DNA of 20,782 bases, from positions 1 to 20,782 of the IMG/VR virus record IMGVR_UViG_3300008012_000251; one strand, 5' to 3'. This DNA comes from a virus. Positions 7,132-19,135 of the stretch are shown here, one piece after another. A model generated the notes under the pieces. It did not search any database. It saw only the letters and a list, made by a program, of their open reading frames with translations, and was not told the origin of the DNA. The position numbers and the translations under genes were made by a program. Within the stretch, counting starts at the first letter, position 1. Each line of letters begins with the position of its first letter.

Positions 7132-7718
7132 TTTCTAGCCGCTTCCTTCAGTCGCTCTTTGATGATCCTTGCCGCGCCCCCACTTTCCATATCCATCGAG
7201 GGTCGGGAGAGGTACCCCGTCCCCGGGATCTTCACTGAGCTCTTCCTTGCAAAGAGAACCTCGACACTCCCGTCAGCCTTCTTGCCGAGAATTGCGGTGG
7301 CGGTTGTGAAGGTTGACTTGAAGCCGAACTCTTCGGGCCGGGAGATGACATCCCTTGCCGTTATCCCACCGACACCAGATGCCGTCTTCAGTCTTTCGGA
7401 AACTGGGATTGCTAGCTTCTGGGCCTTCTTCGGTCGAATAACCCCGCCCACGTCTTGAATCTCAGCATATATCAAAGGTTTTGTGTTCCCAACTCCCACC
7501 CCTGCCTCAACCCACCCAGAGTCTCCAGAGAACTTCACCTTGAAGGCTATATTTCTCCTTAGCTCCCCGGTGGAGATAGGGGCGCCGCCAATTGCCCTGT
7601 TGGTTATCTCGGCCCCTATATCAACTAAAGCGTCATTTAGGGCGGCAAAAACTCTGTCTGAGTTCTTTCTAAGGTCTTCCAACATCTCCCTTGCAGGGAA
7701 GTCCACAACGGCACTCAT
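7128..7718 (-). CDS. HK97 gp10-like tail-completion protein
   Basis: A 196-aa protein. An N-terminal helix (FAALNDALVDIGAEITNRA) is followed by GGAPISTGELRRNIAFKV, the typical 'P..TG.Lr.si' motif of the gp10 family, and by LIYAEIQDVGGVIRPKKAQKLAIPV, the conserved 'ya.~ve~G....ra~P' region. The C-terminal half has ISRPEEFGFKS and an acidic-basic helix (IKERLKEAARK). gp10-type proteins sit at the head-tail joint and complete the neck or tail. Overlaps both neighbours by 4 nt (ATGA). The visible C-terminal region is somewhat longer than the usual 110-150 aa family length. Confidence 0.8.
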   Translation of the reverse strand: MSAVVDFPAREMLEDLRKNSDRVFAALNDALVDIGAEITNRAIGGAPISTGELRRNIAFKVKFSGDSGWVEAGVGVGNTKPLIYAEIQDVGGVIRPKKAQKLAIPVSERLKTASGVGGITARDVISRPEEFGFKSTFTTATAILGKKADGSVEVLFARKSSVKIPGTGYLSRPSMDMESGGAARIIKERLKEAARK

Positions 7719-8683
7719 GGGAGGTAATTTCGGGTGTAGCTGGCCCAGACCTTTCGCACATCCTCAAGAAGGTCGGACTCATTGAGAGAGACAGAGGTTC
7801 CCGCGATAGACTCCCCGAGAATACCGAGGGAGGCCCGGCGCGTGTAAACAAAAGCCGCTTGTCTTGCTACGCTGTGCCTCAAGTCATGCGGCAAGCCGCC
7901 AACATTTCTGGCAAGCCCCCCGACATAGGTAACCTTCACGGTCCCAACCCCTCGGTTCCAAGGCCGATACCTAGCCCGGACAATCCCCTTTTCTGAAAGG
8001 GTAACCGCGTCATAATCATCGGTGTTGGTGGGCTGTACATCTTCAGAAAACCCACCTGTCCAGTCTTCCCATATCCCCGTGACTGATTGGATAGGGTAAC
8101 GCTTGAGGAAGAGGTTTCTCTGGTTCTTGTCGATGGAGTGATATTCGGTGCGGGTTGCCTTCATAAACTTCCGCTTGCAATGGGACTCACACCGCGCCGA
8201 AACCGCGTCAATGATGTTTTCGATAAATTGCCGGTCTAGGTTCTCCACTCCGGGGATTTGGAGTTGTACATCTTCAAACCGGCAGAGGGGAAGATTGTTC
8301 CTTACCCCGAGAATGTGCTCATGAGTGAGCGTCTTCGTATCCCCGTCTGTGTCTATGTAGGTCGCAACAAAGGTTGCCTTGTGCTCTTCAAGGCTCGGCT
8401 CTTCTTCCCCCGAGGTGTTGACAATGGTGGTGTCTGCGGGCTGAATCTGCCAAGTCAGGACCCCAGAAGAGTTCACTGTCACATTGTTTGTGTTGAGGTG
8501 GCTGTTACCAGTCCGGGAGTTTACAGAGGTCCCTGAGATTTCATCGACCAAAGAAAGGGTCAGGGTCAAGATCCTTGGGGTGGCTACCCCAAGAGAGTCA
8601 TAGACAATGGCGGTGCCGTCTGCGTTTCTAAGGGTCGCAGAGTAAACGGCACTCGAACCAGCCGGGTATCTAGCGGTTGACAT
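7715..8683 (-). CDS. Fused beta-domain and gp6-like head-tail connector
   Basis: A 322-aa protein with two parts. Residues 1-130 form a beta-sandwich-like region (RYPAGSSAVYSATLRNADGT, then LTLTLSLVDEISGT, GVLTWQIQPADTT and ATFVATYIDTDGDTKTLTHE), reminiscent of baseplate or Ig-like modules. Residues 131-320 fit the gp6-type connector: RFEDVQLQIPGVENLDRQFIENIIDAVSARCESHCKRKF, then RYPIQSVTGI, the GTVKVTYVGG strand and a closing helical segment (LPHDLRHSVARQAAFVYTRRA). Connectors form the ring below the portal. A typical gp6 is 100-200 aa, so the N-terminal domain is an addition that could face outside the neck. ATG 8683 follows AAGGAAG. Confidence 0.75.
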   Translation of the reverse strand: MSTARYPAGSSAVYSATLRNADGTAIVYDSLGVATPRILTLTLSLVDEISGTSVNSRTGNSHLNTNNVTVNSSGVLTWQIQPADTTIVNTSGEEEPSLEEHKATFVATYIDTDGDTKTLTHEHILGVRNNLPLCRFEDVQLQIPGVENLDRQFIENIIDAVSARCESHCKRKFMKATRTEYHSIDKNQRNLFLKRYPIQSVTGIWEDWTGGFSEDVQPTNTDDYDAVTLSEKGIVRARYRPWNRGVGTVKVTYVGGLARNVGGLPHDLRHSVARQAAFVYTRRASLGILGESIAGTSVSLNESDLLEDVRKVWASYTRNYLP

Positions 8684-9050
8684 TCTCTTCTTCCTTGCAG
8701 TCCATCAATGTGGCTAGCCTCTCAACTTTGATCTCTAGACCTCTAAGCCTGTCGGCCACCTGGGTTGTGTCGGTCAACTGTTTGTGCTCCTCCAGGTCGG
8801 CGCCGAGAGCGTCTAGGCTCACGTTGACAGGTTGGATGAAAAGGGCGCCGGTTGTAGTGATCGCAAAGACAATGGACCCCACAACCGCAATGAGTTGGGT
8901 GGTGTCAACCTTTCCGATCTTCGCAACCTCGGGGGAAACCCTTGCCTCAAAGGAGTCAAGTTCAATCTTCAGTTCTTTCAGGTCTTCGGTATTCTGAAGG
9001 CTTGTTTGCTCGGTTTGAGTAAGTCTCTCTAAGTAAAAGTTTTCACTCAT
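8670..9050 (-). CDS. Single-TM coiled-coil protein (possible holin-like)
   Basis: A 126-aa protein from ATG 9050 (ATGA overlap with the preceding gene). Residues 1-45 are helical with heptad-like spacing (LERLTQTEQTSLQNTEDLKELK), residues about 52-73 are one transmembrane helix (LIAVVGSIVFAITTTGALFI), and the C-terminal ~50 residues again look coiled-coil (DLEEHKQLTDTTQVADRLRGLEIKVERL). Coil-TM proteins of this size include XhlA/hemolysin-type membrane proteins near lysis genes, but XhlA ends in its TM, so this is only a structural resemblance. A membrane-anchored neck or adhesion component is another option. No endolysin is nearby. Confidence 0.75.
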   Translation of the reverse strand: MSENFYLERLTQTEQTSLQNTEDLKELKIELDSFEARVSPEVAKIGKVDTTQLIAVVGSIVFAITTTGALFIQPVNVSLDALGADLEEHKQLTDTTQVADRLRGLEIKVERLATLMDCKEEENVNR

Positions 9051-9424
9051 GGCGTGCCCGTGGGGGTGGGGGTGGGGGTCGGGGTGGGTCGAGGTAGGTT
9101 GTTGGCGGTGTAGACACTGGCTTCAATGAAATCCAAGACACCTAAAATCATGTCCACTTGTTCTTGAGTGTAACCCGCCTTGAGAGCCTTTTCTTCGGTG
9201 TAGACCGTCTTCACTTCACGGTTAGCGATAAACTCCCCGGCCTCTTCGTAACGTCGCTTATATGCAACCTCAAGATAAGGTTTCCCTCTTGAATCCCTGT
9301 AGACCGAAAACTTGATTTGATTAGCTTCAGCTAGGCCGATCCCCTGCGCCTGGGCTGGGCTAAAAGAGAGGCCCAAGATTGCCGCCGCCGCAATGAGGGC
9401 CTTTGTTGTCAGGTTTGGCTTCAT
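9047..9424 (-). CDS. Exported protein with Thr-Pro tail
   Basis: A 125-aa protein from ATG 9424, chosen because GGGGAGAAG lies just before it; the frame continues upstream inside the LamG gene but without such a site. Residues 1-27 form a classical Sec signal peptide: basic KPNLTTK, hydrophobic ALIAAAAILGLSFS, cleavage after AQA. The mature part (about 100 residues) is helical and charged (FSVYRDSRGKPYLEVAYKRRYEEAGEF) with no cysteines, then ends in a (Thr-Pro)n stalk encoded by a repeat at 9054-9088. Proline-threonine stalks usually act as stiff spacers. No family recognised; it is the last of four exported proteins in a row. Confidence 0.82.
   Translation of the reverse strand: MKPNLTTKALIAAAAILGLSFSPAQAQGIGLAEANQIKFSVYRDSRGKPYLEVAYKRRYEEAGEFIANREVKTVYTEEKALKAGYTQEQVDMILGVLDFIEASVYTANNLPRPTPTPTPTPTGTP
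9054..9088. repeat. Hexanucleotide-type repeat encoding Thr-Pro, G-rich on plus strand
   Basis: Repeated GTGGGG/GGTGGG units on the plus strand encode the C-terminal PTPTPTPT stalk on the minus strand. The plus strand carries several runs of four or more G with 1-2 nt loops, enough for a G-quadruplex on the non-coding strand. Confidence 0.85.
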
Positions 9425-9435
9425 CTTCTCCCCTA

Positions 9436-10284
9436 TTAAAAGCAAGCCGCGGATGGGTCGGAGGGCAGTTTGCAGTTCCCGCAATTGCTGCGATTGTATC
9501 CCGTGTCCACCCAGTGAGTTCCTAGTCTTGTGCAGTTGGAACCATCTAGCCAGCAAGAGCAGATTTGGCATAGTTCTTCTTCCGTAAGCGCGACATCAAA
9601 AACAGCCACTTCATCGCAAGCCGACCCATTAGTTAGAGGCCAGCAAAATCCACTGTTACCACCGGGGTTGCCAGCGGTTGCACTAACTGTCTGACATAGC
9701 CACCCCAATTCCCCCGGATCGCTACCGCAACCTTTCAGGGTGTTCCCAGCGTCATCATAGGAAATGGATAGAAACCCAAAGACAGTCGCGGATTCTATCG
9801 AACCGAATCCGACCTGATCTCCGTTCACTCCCGATGAGCCATTAGAGTTGACAAAGATATTTGATGTGGTGTTCCCCGACAAGAAAGCAACCTGAAACCC
9901 ACCAGACCCCTCCCTTTCCCAGCCGACAATTGATATATCCCCAGAAGGGAAGCAGGAAGAACTCACCCCACAGGTTAGCTCCTGCCCAAGAGTCATGGCC
10001 TTCGCGTTGCCCCTGATTCCAGTTGTATAACCAGCACTGCCGGGGTCGCTAAGGTCACAGTCAGTGCCCGACGCGCAAGAGCCAGCGGAAGCCTCAAGGC
10101 CACTCGCGCTGTCCATCGTCCAGTAGGCCACCAGCCCGGGGCATTGGCTCCAGTCAGGCAAGGACTCAGTGACAGCGGGGGTGAAGAAGATCCCATCGGC
10201 AACAATGCCGTCAGCAACCATCGCTCTGGCGTTGCCAGACAAGGCAACTAGAAGGATCAAGGCTGGGTATAGGTAATGACGCAT
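9436..10284 (-). CDS. Exported LamG/concanavalin-like lectin protein
   Basis: A 282-aa protein. Residues 1-21 are a Sec signal peptide (MRHYLYPALILLVALSGNARA, cut after ARA). The next ~200 residues have the LamG-like jelly-roll pattern: CPGLVAYWTMDSASG near residue 50, GIRGNAKAMTLG, FPSGDISIVGWE, and the closing ACDEVAVFDVALTEEELCQI, which matches the usual 'dEv.vy..aLt..Ei' end strand. About 70 C-terminal residues are very Cys-rich (LCQICSCW, NCTRLG, SNCGNCK). The fold usually binds sugars, and in phages occurs in tail spikes and fibres. The many cysteines suggest disulfides outside the cytoplasm. ATG 10284 follows GGGAGGTTTC and overlaps the preceding gene by 28 nt. Confidence 0.8.
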   Translation of the reverse strand: MRHYLYPALILLVALSGNARAMVADGIVADGIFFTPAVTESLPDWSQCPGLVAYWTMDSASGLEASAGSCASGTDCDLSDPGSAGYTTGIRGNAKAMTLGQELTCGVSSSCFPSGDISIVGWEREGSGGFQVAFLSGNTTSNIFVNSNGSSGVNGDQVGFGSIESATVFGFLSISYDDAGNTLKGCGSDPGELGWLCQTVSATAGNPGGNSGFCWPLTNGSACDEVAVFDVALTEEELCQICSCWLDGSNCTRLGTHWVDTGYNRSNCGNCKLPSDPSAACF

Positions 10285-11135
10285 GAAACCTCCCTACTCC
10301 CTGCACTGCCAGTCTCGTCCCAATGTAGTTGTATCGTATCACCAGCCGAAAAGATAACACTACATCCCCCAGCGTTCTTTGGAGATGAAGAACCGTCTTT
10401 GTAATCAATAGCACAAGAAGAATCAGCCCCGTTCTTTTGTATGTACACGGTCCTTCCATTAGGAGCGGTAGCAAAAGCAGCAGAGATCGCACAGTCAAGA
10501 TCGGTCACGGTTATAGCGTGAGGGAGAATCGTACTGTGGTTTGACGTGCTGCTACTAACGTGTCCACCATCACCTGAAATGGCTCTCCAGTTCTGATAGT
10601 AATCATTGTTAGTGCCTATACTGCTTGCAGCGTAAGCCAGATAACCGCTGGAGCAACTTCCAGAGCAAATCAACTCCTCAGACCCCCCGTTGGGGTAGTG
10701 ATAGAGTTTTGAGTCACTGCTCTTCGCATAAATCTTGGTATACCCACTAGGTCCAGCAGTCGAGGGAGGAGTTGCCATCAGAGTGACATACATCCCTTCA
10801 TCTTGATCCTCTGTGATTGTCCTTGGGCCGGGGGATGTGGTGCCGTTGGTGTACTCGAAGCAAGCGTCAATGCCTGTGGTGATAAAGTCCTTGTCGCAAT
10901 GGAACCTTGTAAAATCGTCGGCGGGGGCGCTTGGGGTAGTGGTATTCTGCTGAAGGTCAATGTACCTCGACCCATCGCTTGCTGTCCCGTTGATGGATGT
11001 TGCTGTGATCTCCCCTGTCCCCGTGGCGTTCAATGTCTGACCACTCGGGACCGCAACTGTGGCGCCGCTATTCTCCCAGTCCAGGGCCAGAGCCTGGCTG
11101 GGAATAAGTAGGAGGAGGAAGAAGAGGGAGATCAC
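10257..11135 (-). CDS. Exported beta-rich, Cys-containing protein
   Basis: A 292-aa protein starting at GTG 11135, preceded by GGGGCAAGG, just after the stop of the previous gene. This start gives a compact signal peptide (MISLFFLLLLIPSQALA, cut after ALA), though its n-region lacks a basic residue. A longer frame to TTG 11225 would bury the signal 30 residues in and overlap the upstream gene. The mature protein is Thr/Ser/Gly-rich with eight cysteines. Its last ~80 residues (ATAPNGRTVYIQKNG, CSVIFSAGDTIQLHWDE, SREVSCVITY) form a beta-sandwich-like module that resembles the C-terminus of the 209-aa protein two genes upstream. Likely surface or virion-associated; no named family. Confidence 0.75.
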   Translation of the reverse strand: MISLFFLLLLIPSQALALDWENSGATVAVPSGQTLNATGTGEITATSINGTASDGSRYIDLQQNTTTPSAPADDFTRFHCDKDFITTGIDACFEYTNGTTSPGPRTITEDQDEGMYVTLMATPPSTAGPSGYTKIYAKSSDSKLYHYPNGGSEELICSGSCSSGYLAYAASSIGTNNDYYQNWRAISGDGGHVSSSTSNHSTILPHAITVTDLDCAISAAFATAPNGRTVYIQKNGADSSCAIDYKDGSSSPKNAGGCSVIFSAGDTIQLHWDETGSAGSREVSCVITYTQP

Positions 11136-11151
11136 AGCAACCTTGCCCCTA

Positions 11152-11844
11152 TCAGGCTGTTTTCTGGAAGGAACAGGAGATGTGAGTCGAGGTCGGGTTG
11201 ATAGCTGTTGAAGCTCTGACGGCAACGCACTGACCAGCAGTCACTGACTGAGAATCTGTGTCTACACTCGGAGCGGTTGTCCCATTAACTATCTGGGCAA
11301 GGGTTCCATAGGTGAGGGCGCTTCCACAGGTTCCAACTCCAACCTCAACGGTAATGTTGCCAGCAGCGGTTGAAGAGATACACCGAAAATTACTATATGA
11401 CCCCGCACCCATGGGAACCATGACATTATCATCGGTGGTCGAGACCTTCCCGTTTAGTCCAATGAAGATCTCACTGGTTCCCCCACTGTCTAGGTCAATG
11501 GCGGTCTCGGTAGAAAAGGTAATCTCTGGGTTGATGGTGCTTCCCGCTGAAATCGTGGCGCAACTGAAGGTGTTGGGGCTTCCATCGGAAAAGTTCAAGG
11601 CTTCATTGGCCCCGTTACAGTTGGGAACATCTGTAGCCACCCAGGTGGTTCCATTGCCAACAAGAACATAGGTGTCAGTTGCCGCTGTTACATTGGTTCC
11701 GCCATTGGCAACAGGGACAGTCCCGGTGAGTGAAATGACGCCATTTGATACGTCAATATTAGTCGATCCCTCAATTGCCCAAGCAATCGAACTGCCAACA
11801 ATAATGATGGCTAGGGATTGGATAATGCTGTTTAATCTCTTCAT
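11152..11844 (-). CDS. Exported tail-fibre-like protein with GGT motif
   Basis: A 230-aa protein from ATG 11844 with an AGGAGG ribosome site. Residues 1-23 form a Sec signal peptide (MKRLNSIIQSLAIIIVGSSIAWA, cut after AWA). Residues about 38-70 read SLTGTVPVANGGTNVTAATDTYVLVGNGTTW, a pattern widespread in phage tail fibres and adhesins (lp.anGGTg...), followed by a Ser/Thr/Gly-rich beta region (VMVPMGAGSYSNFRC, GNITVEVGVGTCG). Six cysteines are spread along the mature chain. The signal peptide is unusual for a fibre, which normally assembles in the cytoplasm. First of four exported genes; no promoter is visible in the 38-nt gap upstream. Confidence 0.78.
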   Translation of the reverse strand: MKRLNSIIQSLAIIIVGSSIAWAIEGSTNIDVSNGVISLTGTVPVANGGTNVTAATDTYVLVGNGTTWVATDVPNCNGANEALNFSDGSPNTFSCATISAGSTINPEITFSTETAIDLDSGGTSEIFIGLNGKVSTTDDNVMVPMGAGSYSNFRCISSTAAGNITVEVGVGTCGSALTYGTLAQIVNGTTAPSVDTDSQSVTAGQCVAVRASTAINPTSTHISCSFQKTA

Positions 11845-11882: not shown

Positions 11883-12512
11883 TTAGGTCAAAACGTATCG
11901 CAGCGAGTAGCGATGGTGGGCGGTTGCGGCCCCAGAAGAAGTCTGGAGTCTGAGAGAGAGGCGGTCCCCGGTGCTACAAGTAACGGGGTCGGTTGATGTG
12001 CTCCCATCCTGAGAAGTCCCCGAGACCGTGATCGAAAGTCCAGAAACAACCCCATTCCTGATGATGTCATAAACAAAGGACTCCCCGGTCCCCGGCGCTG
12101 CTGTTGCCCTGACGTTTAACTCGACCGCTCGCCCCTCGGGGACGGGAATTGAGACCTTTGCATCTGTCTTGTCCTCGAAGGTTCCCAAGTACATGGTTTG
12201 AGAACTTCCAATTGAGGAAATGGTTGCACCAAGGATCATGTCCGGGGTCTCCTCCCTAGAGAGGGTTTCTGGGGTGTTGAAATCATCAAACCTCCCGCGA
12301 AGGCCCGCCCCGAGGTAGAGGTCCGCTGTTGACCTCTCAAGAGTGTCTGAGGTGGGGGAGGAGGTAGAGGGCGCCGCAGAATATCCGTAGCCCCGCCGCA
12401 AGAAGTCCAACTCAACCGAATCCAGGGCTGGAAAGGTGGACAAATCAAGGGCAAAACTCGGGTGGTGGTCAAGGAGCTCCGAGGTTTCAAAAGAAGGGGT
12501 GGCAACGGGCAC
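11883..12512 (-). CDS. Beta-rich structural-type protein, unknown
   Basis: A 209-aa protein starting at GTG 12512, 18 nt after the glycosyltransferase stop. The N-terminal ~70 residues are polar (SSPTSDTLERSTADLYLGAGLRG), the rest is beta-rich: MILGATISSIGSSQTMYLGTF, VPEGRAVELNVRATAAP, ESFVYDIIRNGVVSGLSITVSG and a last strand SLRYVL. The end resembles the C-terminus of the 292-aa exported protein (ATAP-G-xx-YxI-NG, then C-x-x-GDxLxL). It has no signal peptide and one cysteine. A decoration, fibre or receptor-binding accessory is plausible; no family recognised. The ribosome site is poor: TAGGGG abuts the GTG. Confidence 0.75.
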   Translation of the reverse strand: MPVATPSFETSELLDHHPSFALDLSTFPALDSVELDFLRRGYGYSAAPSTSSPTSDTLERSTADLYLGAGLRGRFDDFNTPETLSREETPDMILGATISSIGSSQTMYLGTFEDKTDAKVSIPVPEGRAVELNVRATAAPGTGESFVYDIIRNGVVSGLSITVSGTSQDGSTSTDPVTCSTGDRLSLRLQTSSGAATAHHRYSLRYVLT

Positions 12513-12530: not shown

Positions 12531-13367
12531 TTAGAGGGAAAACCTTGATCGAGGGAAGGTGGGGGGAACTGGCCGGGGTTCTCCGTTGCGGTCTGCCTTG
12601 ACTGCATCCTGTAGGCTGGGGTCCTTGTCCACAAATTCCCACCAATCCCCGCCAAACTTCACCCTGTTTGCCGCTTCATGGTCAAAACGCCCTTCTGATT
12701 GACTCCCGAGGTGAAGAATTCTGGAAGCGGGTTCAATGACCACCTGTCTTCGATGTTCCGATCTTACCCGGTAACAAAGGTCAATGTCTTCATATCCGTT
12801 GCGGTAACGAGTATCGAAGAGAAGCCTCATGTCTCTTCTCATGGCAAGGCAAGCTCCGGTTACTGCCGGAACAATCTTCGCCCGAAGAGCAACATCGGGG
12901 ACTTCGGAGATTTGAACTCCTTGGTAAAGATGTTGAAGGGAGAAGGCTGGCCCTCCAGCCCCTTCATATTTCTTAGGGAAGACTCCAAGGTGGTCAACTG
13001 TGGTGCCGTCTTGCTTCAACTGAAGGTTGCCAACAAGCCCGATAGAATCCCACTCCAGCCACTTGAGAAGGGGACTGAGCCAATCCCCTAAGACCACCGT
13101 GTCGGAGTTCAAGAGAACAATCTTCTCACCCTGAGCCTGAACAATTGCAGAGTTGCAAGATACACTGAACCCCTTGTTTAGGGGAGACCGCAAAACACGC
13201 GCCCCGAACTCCTCAGAAACTGACCGGATCTCCTCCGCTTCTCGGGAGCCATCGTCGGAGACAATAACCTCCACCCCCGGGGGGACTGTCTCCCTTACCG
13301 ACTTCAGACAACCTGTCAAAAGGTCAACTCTTCCAAAAACCGGAACTATGATAGAGGTCTCAATCAT
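12531..13367 (-). CDS. Family 2 (GT-A) glycosyltransferase
   Basis: A 278-aa GT2-type enzyme. SIIVPVFGRVDLLTGCLKSV is the first strand and helix, VEVIVSDDGS (D38-D39) binds the nucleotide, and VLLNSDTVV (N87-S88-D89) stands in the place of the metal-binding DxD. Later, ACLAMRRDMRLLFD and GYEDIDLCYRV match the acceptor-side ED motif of rhamnosyl- and related transferases. Such enzymes add a sugar from a nucleotide sugar to a glycan or protein. The ATG 13367 overlaps the GT4 gene by 8 nt, so the two are probably made together. The substrate could be a virion protein or a host surface glycan; the sequence does not decide. Confidence 0.9.
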   Translation of the reverse strand: MIETSIIVPVFGRVDLLTGCLKSVRETVPPGVEVIVSDDGSREAEEIRSVSEEFGARVLRSPLNKGFSVSCNSAIVQAQGEKIVLLNSDTVVLGDWLSPLLKWLEWDSIGLVGNLQLKQDGTTVDHLGVFPKKYEGAGGPAFSLQHLYQGVQISEVPDVALRAKIVPAVTGACLAMRRDMRLLFDTRYRNGYEDIDLCYRVRSEHRRQVVIEPASRILHLGSQSEGRFDHEAANRVKFGGDWWEFVDKDPSLQDAVKADRNGEPRPVPPTFPRSRFSL

Positions 13368-14352
13368 CGAGGCGTTGGGTCAGGAGCTCAATGGCTTCCT
13401 TGAGGTTGTTGGAGGCATCGGTCCAGGTCATCGAAGAATGAACGCGCCGCGCCCCCCTTAGTGCTCTCTTGCTCCACTTCGGATAAGCCTTCACAACCTG
13501 TGCCATTGATCGGGCTAGGTCTACCCTGTCAGCAAGAGCAGCATGGAAGATTTCCCCGTCTGAGGATTTTGTCTCGACCATCTCAAAATCAGAGTAAAGG
13601 GCATCATCCTTGAGGAACTCTGGTGGTGCTGAGTGTTGTACCGTTATGACCGGGAGGCCAGAGGCAAGGGCCTCCAGGTGGCAGAGTCCAAAGCCTTCCC
13701 CGAAAGAAGGGAGAACGGCGCAATGGCTCTCTCCAACCAAAGCAGACATTTCCTCGGCAGGGAGAAAACGAGAGTCAAAGGTCACAGAATTGGACAGTTG
13801 AGAAACCTTCCCCTCGCCCTTCGGGTCTGTTGTCTTGATGGTCAGGTGGCACCAGTCTTGACCCTGAAAAGCCAAATCCCAAGCCCGAATGACGGGACTT
13901 GCCCCCTTCCTTCCGTTTGGGGCTCCTACCCAGAGAAACCTGAACTTCTCTCGGGGGTCAAAACTCCGGGGGGTTATGGGATGCTTGGCCGGGTCAAAGC
14001 CAAGGGGAGAAATAGCGGTTGGAACGTCCCACCTTGCCGCAACCGGGGCAAGGATTCGATCACAGAACCTAGAAGGAACAATCTGACCAGAGGCGCCGCC
14101 ATAGATGAAAGGGTCTTCATGGTAGGAAGGGGCTGGGTCTGTTTCGCACATTGTAAAGAGGAAATTCCTTTTGCTTGGGACCGGCTTGAAGACTTGTGGG
14201 TTGCAGAAATGAATTGCAACCTCTGCGTCTTCGGTGAGAGTGACTTCCGGGTCCTTCTCTAGTGCCTTGAAAAGGGAAGAAGACGCATACTGGTAACCAA
14301 GAGCGTTCCCAAAGAGGCTAACTTCTCGGTATCCTCGGAAGTCTAGCCTCAA
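13360..14352 (-). CDS. Family 4 (GT-B) glycosyltransferase
   Basis: A 330-aa GT4-type enzyme with a TTG start at 14352 preceded by GGGGA. The second Rossmann domain is clear: FRFLWVGAPNGRKGASPVIRAW (about 138-158), CHLTIKTT, then CAVLPSFGEGFGLCHLEALASGLPVI (about 211-236) with the E-x7-E pair E219 and E227 typical of retaining GT4 enzymes. The N-terminal domain (LFTMCETDPAP, GQIVPSRFCDRIL) looks like the acceptor-binding half seen in short GT4 proteins. It lies immediately after the 77-aa gene and overlaps the GT2 gene. Together they could build a disaccharide-type decoration. Confidence 0.9.
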   Translation of the reverse strand: MRLDFRGYREVSLFGNALGYQYASSSLFKALEKDPEVTLTEDAEVAIHFCNPQVFKPVPSKRNFLFTMCETDPAPSYHEDPFIYGGASGQIVPSRFCDRILAPVAARWDVPTAISPLGFDPAKHPITPRSFDPREKFRFLWVGAPNGRKGASPVIRAWDLAFQGQDWCHLTIKTTDPKGEGKVSQLSNSVTFDSRFLPAEEMSALVGESHCAVLPSFGEGFGLCHLEALASGLPVITVQHSAPPEFLKDDALYSDFEMVETKSSDGEIFHAALADRVDLARSMAQVVKAYPKWSKRALRGARRVHSSMTWTDASNNLKEAIELLTQRLDD

Positions 14353-16507: not shown

Positions 16508-19135
16508 TTAACTCCTTCGCACAGGTCGGGTGGAGCACCGACAGTTGATGATTTCTTCTGGCTTGCCGCCAGCGTCTAAGGGACCCCGTAACCCATTTGA
16601 GAAGGTCTCTCCTATCGAAACAACCTCCCCGTCGATTTGATGGGTTCTCCTAACTCTTGCGTCCCCAGCCGAGAGCCATTCAATCTGAGAAACCCCGGCA
16701 TCTTCAAAGGCTTCAATCTGGGAGAGGCTTGCAGCAATGCCTGACTCGGTGCGGGCAATCACCCTCGACCTCCCGGTTGAGATAGTGCCCGAAAAAGCCT
16801 TCTTCACTCTTGAAATAGAGTCCGCTAGGTTGCTCCCAGCAGTATAGGAAGCAACCATTGAGTCCATTACGGACTTTTTGACCGATTCCGAGATGATGTC
16901 CCAATAAGGGACTCGGGAACGGTAAAAAGCATCAGAGAGAAGAGGAAGCCTCTTGGCGTTCTTCGGGTTTGGATATCCGGCAGCAACTGCAATTGACGTG
17001 CCAAGTTGATAACCAGACTCATAGCCCCCAATGACTATTGAGCTAACAGCAGAGGAAAGAACGACAGAGGCAAGAATCCCATCCACTTCTTTAAGGTCTT
17101 CGTCTGTGAGGGTCTGGTCTTCCAATGCCCTAGTCCCCGGAGAACTGGCAAGGGACTTGACAATCTTGTTGAGAAGTTTGTAGTGGAACCCTCGAATTGC
17201 CTTGAAGAGCTTGCTCTCTAGCGGGTAAAGGGCCTCTTCCATCTCTCGGGACAGTTCTGCCCTCCACTCGGGAAGTTGCCACTCTCCATCTTGCCCGATG
17301 TAGTCAGACCGAAGCCGTCCCTTCAACACCGAGACCCCATCGGCAATGTCAAAGACTCTGAGGGACCCAGAAACAAACTCTTCCTTAGAGCAGACAACCG
17401 AAGAGAGAACCCCATCCTCTTCCTTGAACTCTCCCCCTCTGATTTGATTGTCCAAACACCACCGCTTTGCATCCTCCAGGTCCCACTTGGAACTCTTGAA
17501 GTCTACGCTGTGAAGGTGAAGCCCCCGGTCTTCTTCCTCTGGTAGGGATGAAGAGAAACCCGGCGCCTGAACAATCGGGTCAACGTCATAGTCCGAAAGG
17601 AGGATCTCAACGTCTTCAGGCTCAATGCCGATGTTCTTGAGAAGAACCCGAGCCTGTGATGTTGTGATCCCCTTTCCGATTCGGTCTAGGACCGCAATGA
17701 CCCTTGCGGGGTCATGCTCTTCTTCTCTCCCAAAGGACTCTTCTTCTGGGTCTTCTTCCTCGGGGGCCTCTGGAAGGGTGACCTCCTCGGGGGTCTCTTC
17801 GGTGTTCCATGCGTCAATGACTGCCTTCTCGGGGATCAAGCCGGAAGGGACAAGTCTAACGTCCCCTTCGGGGGTGTTCTCCATCCCGAGATCAAACTTG
17901 AGGTTCACCTCATTCCGGGTATATCCAAGGTTGATATAGCCTTGCGCATTGTCGATCTTCTCGGAAAAGGAGTCTTGCAAGGAGTCAACCGCTGAGAAAT
18001 CAAATTTGACTTCAATGTCAAATTGAGAAACCGAGGTCAACCCTTCCGTCAAGACCTCCTGAATGTCAATCGCATTGGGTCCAATGTTTGTGGCGTGTAA
18101 AAGTTTCCACTGAACCTTGAGGCCCGCATCTGACAGACCGGAGTTCTCATATTCATTGAGAACCATGAGAGGCACATTCAAAGCCCGTGCGATCTCCTGA
18201 AGGTTGATCTTCCTTGCTTCACTCCATTGGATATCTCGGGCCGAGATTCCAAGGGAGTCATACTGGAAGTTAGAAGAGAGAACGGCAACCCCTTCGGGGG
18301 AGGTTCCGGCGCCGCCATAAGTATTCAACCACTGTTGCCGGACAATTTCCGCGTCAACCTCATCAAAAGGCCCGTCTCCCGTCCACCTGAGAACTCCCGA
18401 AGGAACCCCGGCGTTGGCTAGGACGTTCTTGTTGTAGATGGACGCTGCAAGGTCTGTGTCCAAAGCCATACTCACAACCCGCAAGGGGGAGACCCCCAAG
18501 ATGGCTGAAGCCGGGTTTACCCCATAGGGGAAATGGAGGATTCTGTTTCGGGGAATGATCTTGGCCTTGTCACTGCCTTCGGGGGAATATCTCCACCCGG
18601 TCAAGTCATAACCACCACTATCCCCGAAGACCGGCGCCATGGTCGAGGGGTAGAGAGGCAAGAGGGCGCGGGGATATCCGAGGGAGTTGGGGCTATCAAT
18701 GAAGACGTAAGCGTTCCCGTGGAGGATTTGATGGGCCGAAATAGTCTTCACAAACTGGGATTGTCTTTGGAGGTTGTTGGGTCGGTCAAGGAGAACCTGG
18801 AGGGGTGAGTTGGGTTGTGCAACTCCAGCCTTGTAAACTCTAAGCGGTGCCTGTGATAGTTGCTGGCCGATGATCTGAATTCCCCGGAAGACTGCCGGGT
18901 TCTGAAGATAAGGATTGGTTACCTCGACCGTTTGGCCGGTGGCGCCGCCCATCCCCGCAAGAATTGCCGAGATGTGAGCAGAAGCAGACCTCTCCTTCTT
19001 CGCACCCACCAAGGCGGTCTTCTTTGAGGCAATCTTCCTAGAAGCCGCCTTCTTTGAAGCAGTCTTCTTTACCCCTACAGGGGCGGGGCGCTTAGATGCG
19101 GCTTCCCCTGTCTTTGGGGTTGTTTTTCTCGGCAA
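16508..19135 (-). CDS. HK97-family portal fused to MuF/SPP1 gp7-like domain
   Basis: An 875-aa protein, about twice a usual portal. Residues 1-50 are Lys/Ala/Ser-rich (KKTASKKAASRKIASKK), like a histone H1 tail. Residues 72-440 are the portal: NPYLQNPAVFRGIQIIGQQLSQAPLRVY, ILHGNAYVFID, NRILHFPYG, GVSPLRVVSMALD, the IQWSEARKINLQEIARALNVP helix, and LGYTRNEVNLKFDL. An acidic linker (445-475) follows, then an unassigned domain (about 538-608). Residues 740-870 match MuF/SPP1 gp7: ARTESGIAAS, DARVRRTHQIDG and the final NCRC. Portals form the dodecameric DNA gate; MuF-type proteins enter the capsid and help assembly or ejection. The TTG start at 19135 follows GGAG at 7 nt, about 30 nt after a likely transcription start. 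The basic tail may bind packaged DNA, which is inference. Confidence 0.9.
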   Translation of the reverse strand: MPRKTTPKTGEAASKRPAPVGVKKTASKKAASRKIASKKTALVGAKKERSASAHISAILAGMGGATGQTVEVTNPYLQNPAVFRGIQIIGQQLSQAPLRVYKAGVAQPNSPLQVLLDRPNNLQRQSQFVKTISAHQILHGNAYVFIDSPNSLGYPRALLPLYPSTMAPVFGDSGGYDLTGWRYSPEGSDKAKIIPRNRILHFPYGVNPASAILGVSPLRVVSMALDTDLAASIYNKNVLANAGVPSGVLRWTGDGPFDEVDAEIVRQQWLNTYGGAGTSPEGVAVLSSNFQYDSLGISARDIQWSEARKINLQEIARALNVPLMVLNEYENSGLSDAGLKVQWKLLHATNIGPNAIDIQEVLTEGLTSVSQFDIEVKFDFSAVDSLQDSFSEKIDNAQGYINLGYTRNEVNLKFDLGMENTPEGDVRLVPSGLIPEKAVIDAWNTEETPEEVTLPEAPEEEDPEEESFGREEEHDPARVIAVLDRIGKGITTSQARVLLKNIGIEPEDVEILLSDYDVDPIVQAPGFSSSLPEEEDRGLHLHSVDFKSSKWDLEDAKRWCLDNQIRGGEFKEEDGVLSSVVCSKEEFVSGSLRVFDIADGVSVLKGRLRSDYIGQDGEWQLPEWRAELSREMEEALYPLESKLFKAIRGFHYKLLNKIVKSLASSPGTRALEDQTLTDEDLKEVDGILASVVLSSAVSSIVIGGYESGYQLGTSIAVAAGYPNPKNAKRLPLLSDAFYRSRVPYWDIISESVKKSVMDSMVASYTAGSNLADSISRVKKAFSGTISTGRSRVIARTESGIAASLSQIEAFEDAGVSQIEWLSAGDARVRRTHQIDGEVVSIGETFSNGLRGPLDAGGKPEEIINCRCSTRPVRRS

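Follow-up and report, generated by a model that had tools for sequence, protein, structure and literature searches.

A cassette of four signal-bearing genes, possibly encoding exported and exchangeable fibre heads and lectins, in an environmental phage

The stretch of DNA analysed here, hereafter the window, is the IMG/VR virus record IMGVR_UViG_3300008012_000251 (20,782 b), and our subject is a cassette of four adjacent genes at positions 9047–11844, designated SP1 to SP4, each of which begins with a predicted signal peptide of the general secretory (Sec) type. The reading that we tentatively prefer, at somewhat below even confidence, is that SP1–SP4 are Sec-exported fibre heads and lectins and not built-in tail parts, that their mature parts are exchangeable cassettes, and that they likely mask receptors of the host. 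A longer contig, G001 (IMGVR_UViG_3300006810_000173, 34,315 b), matches the window at 99.88% identity over 20,284 b and in 488 of the remaining 498 bases. SP3 and SP4 together differ between the two at four positions, all synonymous, and SP1 and SP2 at none.

Signal peptides of SP1–SP4 and of their orthologs

SP1–SP4, their signals and the neighbouring window genes given below lie on the minus strand. The four genes overlap or are tightly spaced. In each product, an n-region that is charged or very short is followed by a hydrophobic core and an AxA site. SP1 (11152–11844; 230 amino acids (aa), 6 Cys) is predicted to lose a signal of 23 aa ending in AWA (IAWA/IEG; 11776–11844). SP2 (10257–11135; 292 aa from a GTG start, 8 Cys, no family assigned) has a 17-aa signal ending in ALA (QALA/LDW; 11085–11135). 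This is the least typical of the four signals, as its n-region carries no positive charge if the GTG is the start; a TTG located 90 nt upstream (11225) would add a charged extension of 30 aa overlapping SP1. The signal of SP3 (9436–10284; 282 aa, 16 Cys) has 21 aa and ends in ARA (NARA/MVA; 10222–10284). SP4 (9047–9424) is a small protein of 125 aa without Cys, with a 26-aa signal ending in AQA (AQA/QGI; 9347–9424); its listed open reading frame (ORF) reaches 9571, and we start it at the ATG at 9424 that stands behind AGGGGAGAAG. It ends in a Pro-Thr repeat tail encoded by a simple GGGGGT-type DNA repeat (9047–9090), which is possibly length-variable and has the same length in G001.

A home-made signal rule, with thresholds set after the sequences had been inspected and unable to separate signals from membrane anchors, was passed by all four proteins (SP2 from its GTG; the longer TTG form fails) and by 0 of 21 other window proteins tested. 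The preliminary description of this locus had reported four consecutive signal-peptide genes, three of them rich in cysteine, and had named failing predictions for most of them as the outcome that would speak against it. Its coordinates proved right, no such failure occurred with the home-made rule, and the cysteine counts of SP1–SP3 agree with it. Two tighter forms of the rule were also applied: all four proteins passed the lenient form and three passed the strict form, which SP2 fails on its uncharged n-region. When the first 40 residues were shuffled, 69, 63, 192 and 176 of the 2,000 versions of SP1, SP2, SP3 and SP4, respectively, passed the lenient form. Among 1,775 distinct called genes of other viral loci, 42 (2.4%) passed the lenient and 25 (1.4%) the strict form, in a set drawn largely from loci gathered by LamG or GGT motifs and thus biased to fibre regions. 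The survey of signal-gene runs left out the window, L001–L005, L010 and L066, and the 1,775-gene survey also L006, L007 and duplicates. In contig L199 the rule flags two membrane-type proteins as well.

No second hydrophobic or membrane-type segment stands out in mature SP1–SP4. A lipobox with Cys at +1 is absent, the first Cys being residue 76 in SP1, 80 in SP2 and 48 in SP3, and SP1–SP4 were therefore rejected as lipoproteins.

Independent evidence for the signals, beyond the home-made rule, is their conservation in orthologs. SP1 has full orthologs in two contigs, L198 (IMGVR_UViG_3300025687_009342; 14,199 b, 46% GC, located via SP2) and L205 (IMGVR_UViG_3300006867_004813; 9,382 b, 69% GC, located via SP1 alignment), and SP2 has a partial one in L198, which ends inside the gene. 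A further contig with the same locus, L216 (28,455 b), was located via capsid alignment. Gene calls were simple ORF choices, and the frames of the GC-rich L205 were read directly. The rule was passed by the SP1 of the window, L198 and L205, by both SP2s and by the L216 gene at the SP1 position. It was passed by none of four members of the protein family encoded directly before SP1 in the window phage, L198 and L205, represented in the window by a 209-aa protein (11883–12512). Since the orthologs carry signals too, we rejected an artefact of start choice.

That the signals are false, the products being ordinary fibre proteins of the cytoplasm whose hydrophobic N-termini stay uncleaved, is in our judgement very improbable. 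The uncharged n-region of SP2, the failure of L198 SP2 in the tighter forms of the rule and the rule's inability to exclude membrane anchors would all fit such a reading. Against it, the orthologs keep the physical features of a signal in spite of diverged sequence, the start of the mature part is conserved at the cleavage site, the cysteines are conserved (6 of 6 in the three SP1 orthologs, 4 of 4 in the SP2 overlap), and distant loci with GGT fibres lack signals (0 of 9). The signals of SP1–SP4 look functional, and Sec export as predicted from these sequences is well supported.

Exchange of mature parts at the signal junction

The mature parts of SP1 in L198 and L205 are 96% identical in amino acids (204 codons; synonymous divergence (dS) 0.11, ratio of nonsynonymous to synonymous divergence (dN/dS) 0.22), and the signals are 40% identical with a dS of 1.48. 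In DNA, the similarity forms a block of 649 nt with 95.4% identity that begins 24 nt ahead of the cleavage codon and extends 10 nt beyond the stop codon. Outside this block, the single blastn match between L198 and L205 is one of 64 nt in the capsid gene. SP2 shows the same left border: between the window and L198 the mature part is 90% identical (187 codons, dS 0.46, dN/dS 0.11) and the signal 18%, and DNA identity starts at most 30 nt after the cleavage codon. The neighbours of SP1 in L198 and L205 are distant protein homologues, with 35% identity in the 209-aa family and 40% in the capsid protein. In both of these genes L205 is nearer to the window phage (45% and 52%, respectively). Its mature SP1 behaves in the opposite way, being 96% like that of L198 and 45% like that of the window, so that the history of the SP1 body differs from that of its phage. 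The G+C content at third codon positions (GC3) of L198 SP1 is 0.53 in the signal and 0.89 in the mature part, suggesting a GC-rich origin for the body behind a signal that remained in place. An assembly chimera is an unlikely origin of the L198 block, given 30 mismatches in 649 nt, borders near the ORF ends and a signal in frame.

These exchanges bear on whether SP1–SP4 might be exported virion adhesins, which would fold and become disulfide-bonded in the periplasm and then join virions, on lysis or later, as additional host-range fibres. Fibre tips are swapped between phages, and the position of the SP genes inside a head-tail operon fits this idea, as do the similarities of the L216 and L201 signal-bearing proteins to fibre families (see below). 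Ordinary fibres, however, are known to retain their N-terminal virion anchor when the tip is swapped, whereas the resident piece here is the signal, and nearly the same SP1 is shared by phages with only about 40% identity between their capsid proteins. This is some evidence against SP1 as a built-in virion part. Together with the absence of a signal from the matching isolate fibres that were examined (4 of 12 records), it leads us to consider virion adhesins unlikely. We infer virion independence because mature parts are exchanged among phages with diverged capsids and no resident N-terminal piece other than the signal is left.

Exchange in the manner of a cassette would also suit secreted adhesins or glycan binders carried as morons, which would serve the infected or lysogenic host in particle attachment or biofilm formation. 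Lectin-like and possibly C1q-like folds would agree with this. Of the 20 window genes listed, none has a lower GC3 than SP1 (0.50) and SP2 (0.53), as would fit acquired genes. We nevertheless regard it as distinctly unlikely: an integrase or lysogeny gene was not recognised on reading the ORFs of the 34-kb G001 (no family search was made), and a search with short degenerate peptide seeds found no SP1 relative in genome contigs of 84,980 species.

Fibre and lectin modules in signal-bearing proteins

The mature part of SP1 begins with a GGT fibre module similar to that of five fibre proteins of other contigs (phmmer, 1.1e-4 to 0.028); the tail-fibre GGT motif noted in the preliminary description is thus real, at modest similarity. 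The C-terminal 100 residues of the SP1 family are related to the C-terminal domain of the signal-less 209-aa family (hhalign E 1.1e-5, probability 82%). Controls gave 0.65 for the reversed profile, 0.0076 for the best of 100 column shuffles and 8.7e-4 for the best of 350 random viral proteins. In Foldseek searches with a weak AlphaFold2 (AF2) model of SP1, the top match was the chlamydial secreted protein pgp3 (5.5e-4), and CD40L (TNF-like), C1q, CBM6 and a trimeric phage cement protein followed at E values of about 2e-3 to 2e-2; viral collagen-repeat and phage proteins were matched in BFVD from 2.9e-6. The SP1 head may be C1q/TNF-like, as far as such models indicate. SP2 matches the 209-aa family weakly (E 0.0078), no better than the best column shuffle of the SP1 comparison. 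A C-terminal domain common to SP1 and SP2 was not confirmed (E 0.18).

A scan of SP1–SP4 against Pfam and PHROG gave no assignment, the weak matches being BON, P22_AR_C, UBA_6 and phrog_7049; the last, at 0.073, is the only fibre-type match of SP2. No fibre sequence module was found in SP4. With tblastn, no match was obtained in 50,697 phage records for SP1, SP2 and SP4 (E 1), for SP3 (E 0.01) or for the L198 209-aa protein (E 0.01), and peptide seeds of SP3 in IMG/VR matched only this phage's own contig.

The LamG-like domain that had been described for one of the four proteins is supported in part. SP3 has no match to Pfam Laminin_G. It is matched by a LamG profile of seven relatives (6.6e-7 among 1,870 proteins), a value biased by the gathering of these relatives with SP3's own motif, and both ends of its domain align with those of LamG proteins encoded on further viral contigs, the end motif scoring only 4.6 bits. 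Foldseek matches of its AF2 model are mainly lectin-type by title (2.2e-5), the best being the tailspike of cyanopodophage Pan3. From these models SP3 looks LamG/concanavalin-A-like. It shares this fold with virion lectins and differs from them in its signal, its 16 Cys and its position beyond the reach of Pfam models.

The ordinary fibres examined carry no signals, as had been stated for such fibres before our analysis. Relatives of SP1 were found at 12 loci. Three hold full-length orthologs (one being this phage), all with signal; the remaining nine match the GGT module only and lack a signal in 9 of 9 cases (six distinct proteins at 95% identity). The L216 signal-bearing protein at the SP1 position, of at least 749 aa because the contig end cuts the gene, matches tail-fibre and fibritin genes in 12 isolate records as well as phrog_677 (8.7e-11). 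No signal is present in the matching genes of the four records examined. The nine GGT loci and these four genes have 0–4 Cys. Likewise, the signal-bearing 372-aa protein of L201 shows similarity to phrog_37013 tail fiber proteins (1.1e-15) and to a signal-less protein of phage DSL-LC04. SP1 thus shares its module with GGT-repeat tail fibres and differs from those examined in its signal and Cys content.

By sequence, signal-bearing fibre-type proteins form a class that recurs among further environmental phages, and their genes often lie close to those for tail or lysis functions. Among 81 GGT ORFs in the 80 loci listed out of 120, six pass the rule and two were judged convincing (L075 and L135). 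Adjacent same-strand pairs of genes passing the strict form were observed four times in the 1,775-gene survey, with 0.26 expected by chance. Runs comprise two strict genes in L024/L199 (with a flagged beta-helix protein beside them), two in L135/L200 and three in L182/L201; L202/L160 has a single gene. They resemble the cassette in holding two to three adjacent signal genes that include LamG, GGT, beta-helix or tail-fibre proteins, and L199–L202 differ from it in the absence of an SP2 match and in a gene order nearer to tail or lysis genes. The beta-helix protein of L199 (L199:7028-9412, 794 aa, with signal) also matches DUF5018, which would fit a host of this phage among the Bacteroidota.

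Proposed role and genome context

SP1–SP4 would leave the cytoplasm via Sec, and their site of action would be the periplasm, the surface of the infected cell or its medium. At least two of them appear to be built from adhesion modules, namely the GGT stalk and possibly C1q/TNF-like head of SP1 and the LamG-type lectin of SP3, and SP1–SP3 would likely be held by disulfides formed outside the cytoplasm. The mature proteins would be plug-in cassettes, in that phages with different capsids swap the mature coding sequence and each retains its own signal. Their most probable job would be to occupy glycans or receptors of the host surface and so to stop re-adsorption by related phages and by the phage's own progeny; the adjoining glycosyltransferases may alter the same surface. 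Receptor masking would be the simplest purpose that fibre heads and lectins, exported and encoded beside glycosyltransferases, could serve. The preliminary description had proposed an exported system of receptor mimics, of surface coat proteins that block other phages, or of virion proteins matured in the periplasm: an exported set inside a head-tail operon, composed partly of fibre and lectin modules, is consistent with our results, which single out no one of these three roles.

A more specific version, which we consider doubtful, is that the phage makes related receptor-binding heads twice, once as the signal-less 209-aa protein and once as the disulfide-hardened, exported SP1 that masks the receptor. 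Phages infecting different hosts would then exchange mature heads as cassettes, each head joined to a resident signal that is tuned to the host and stands in place of a virion anchor.

The comparison with T5 Llp and Cor is one of function only. Both are phage-encoded and exported by a signal, with genes beside that of the receptor-binding protein; Llp, which has a disulfide, is a lipoprotein that acts from the periplasm and excludes further phages by blocking re-adsorption (PMC9586334). They are small and lipid-anchored, whereas SP1–SP4 lack a lipobox and are mostly larger, with SP1 and SP3 composed of fibre and lectin modules. In the accessible part of a study on Bacteroides phages, diversity-generating retroelement proteins of phages are without the signal peptides of bacterial ones (PMC6199706), and for five rumen phages the accessible text reports signals only in two Bacteroides phages, two and one, respectively (PMC5723332). 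The accessible parts of PMC8143477, PMC3338817 and PMC13274417 hold nothing on exported fibre-type proteins, and no description of such proteins or of exchange at the signal junction stood out in searches of the open-licence PMC literature, which includes few subscription papers.

Several points weigh against the reading as exported, exchangeable receptor-masking proteins. The cases of exchange number two, with the same left border in both and with the right border of SP2 beyond the end of L198. Orthologs of SP3 and SP4 were not found, and L198, L205 and L216 stop short of their position. For L198 SP2 the rule picks TLA at residue 18, seven residues before the alignment junction GFS/LDW, and the tighter forms failed. 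The relation between SP1 and the 209-aa family, taken singly, has an E value of 5.4e-4 for L198 SP1 and a non-significant 0.075 for window SP1. The AF2 models of SP1 and SP3 have a mean predicted local distance difference test score (pLDDT) of 49.4 and 50.3, respectively, with a block at residues 121–230 of SP1 at 51–75. The position of signal-bearing fibre genes near tail or lysis genes in other phages would also fit a virion role. Capsid and SP1 alignment searches of genome contigs (one genome for each of 84,980 species) found no host. If the host is Gram-negative, Sec by itself would take the proteins no further than the periplasm, and a further step to the surface, or action in the periplasm, would be needed. 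Finally, superinfection exclusion is suggested here by analogy, and the lack of a lipobox sets SP1–SP4 apart from lipoproteins of the Llp/Cor type.

If this reading is true, the Sec pathway lets phages place receptor binders of the fibre type beyond the virion, which would give them a new way to exclude superinfection or to remodel the surface, and a share of the metagenomic genes annotated as tail fibre would not encode virion components. The boundary between signal and mature part as an exchange point would then be a distinct form of mosaicism and offer a simple genome test for exported phage proteins.

Directly downstream of SP4, and overlapping its stop codon by 4 nt, lies the gene for a 126-aa protein (8670–9050; DUF2730 below the Pfam cut-off) with one transmembrane-type segment, coiled-coil-like by reading. 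A spanin or a holin was considered as a putative identity of this protein. The overlap and segment could point to an envelope complex of SP4 and the 126-aa protein at lysis, with the other SP proteins as passengers, and the signal genes of L200 and L202 lie near or beside GH108 lysins. The absence of a lipobox from SP4, the adhesion-module character of SP1 and SP3 and the lack of an endolysin recognisable by reading beside the window cassette make such envelope or lysis helpers improbable. Small membrane-type proteins, coiled-coil-like by reading, are encoded downstream of signal-gene runs in three different phages (window 8670–9050, L199:6388-6789 and L200:15710-16302).

The cassette lies between glycosyltransferases and a head-tail adaptor, as described previously. 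On the upstream side are a GT2 glycosyltransferase (12531–13367) and a GT4-type glycosyltransferase (13360–14352), with Pfam matches of 1e-12 and 5.9e-21. The latter also matches Pfam GT4-conflict (1.4e-12), a family named for conflict systems. The downstream border is a head-tail adaptor (7715–8683; phrog_442, 1.7e-20) whose N-terminus is extended by an additional domain of about 125 aa. Relatives of this domain occur in L004 and L005 in open frames of 145 aa at 33–35% identity, so that the extension is apparently a fused stand-alone gene. The conserved order that the preliminary description had proposed to look for in metagenomic phages was found in all four contigs reaching the locus (window phage, L198, L205 and L216): glycosyltransferases, the 209-aa family and a signal-bearing gene follow one another, with a methyltransferase gene interposed in L205. 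Capsid alignment gave nine relatives, including L216; L214 is G001, L217 is L198, L215 is the same phage, L218–L221 stop before the locus and L222 is distant. A radical SAM gene lies within the glycosyltransferase cluster beside the signal-bearing genes in L198 (9957–11081, by Pfam) and in L216 (14602–15726, by its similar sequence start).

The ORFs of G001, as we read them, indicate a siphovirus-like genome. One side carries a portal gene with a MuF-like end, a prohead protease, the glycosyltransferases, the cassette, the head-tail adaptor, a gp10-like gene and tail-completion genes. A replication block (RecT-like protein, exonuclease, single-stranded DNA-binding protein and primase-helicase) follows, and then the terminase, major capsid, tail tube and tape measure genes. 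The names of the portal, protease, glycosyltransferases and adaptor come from family or tblastn matches and all others from reading. In L215 (G011), whose capsid protein is identical to that of the window phage, the 2,001-aa tape measure is followed by one gene of 272 aa and another of 1,237 aa or more. Because these genes occupy the usual tail-tip position, the cassette is not at the ordinary tail-tip place. By the same reading of G001 (L006, L007), the head genes are unusually split, about 20 kb and the replication block separating portal and protease from terminase and major capsid. Among the listed genes, three of the five amino-acid differences between the window and G001 cluster in the C-terminal part of the portal protein (window 17056–17134; S694A, G686K and T668A).

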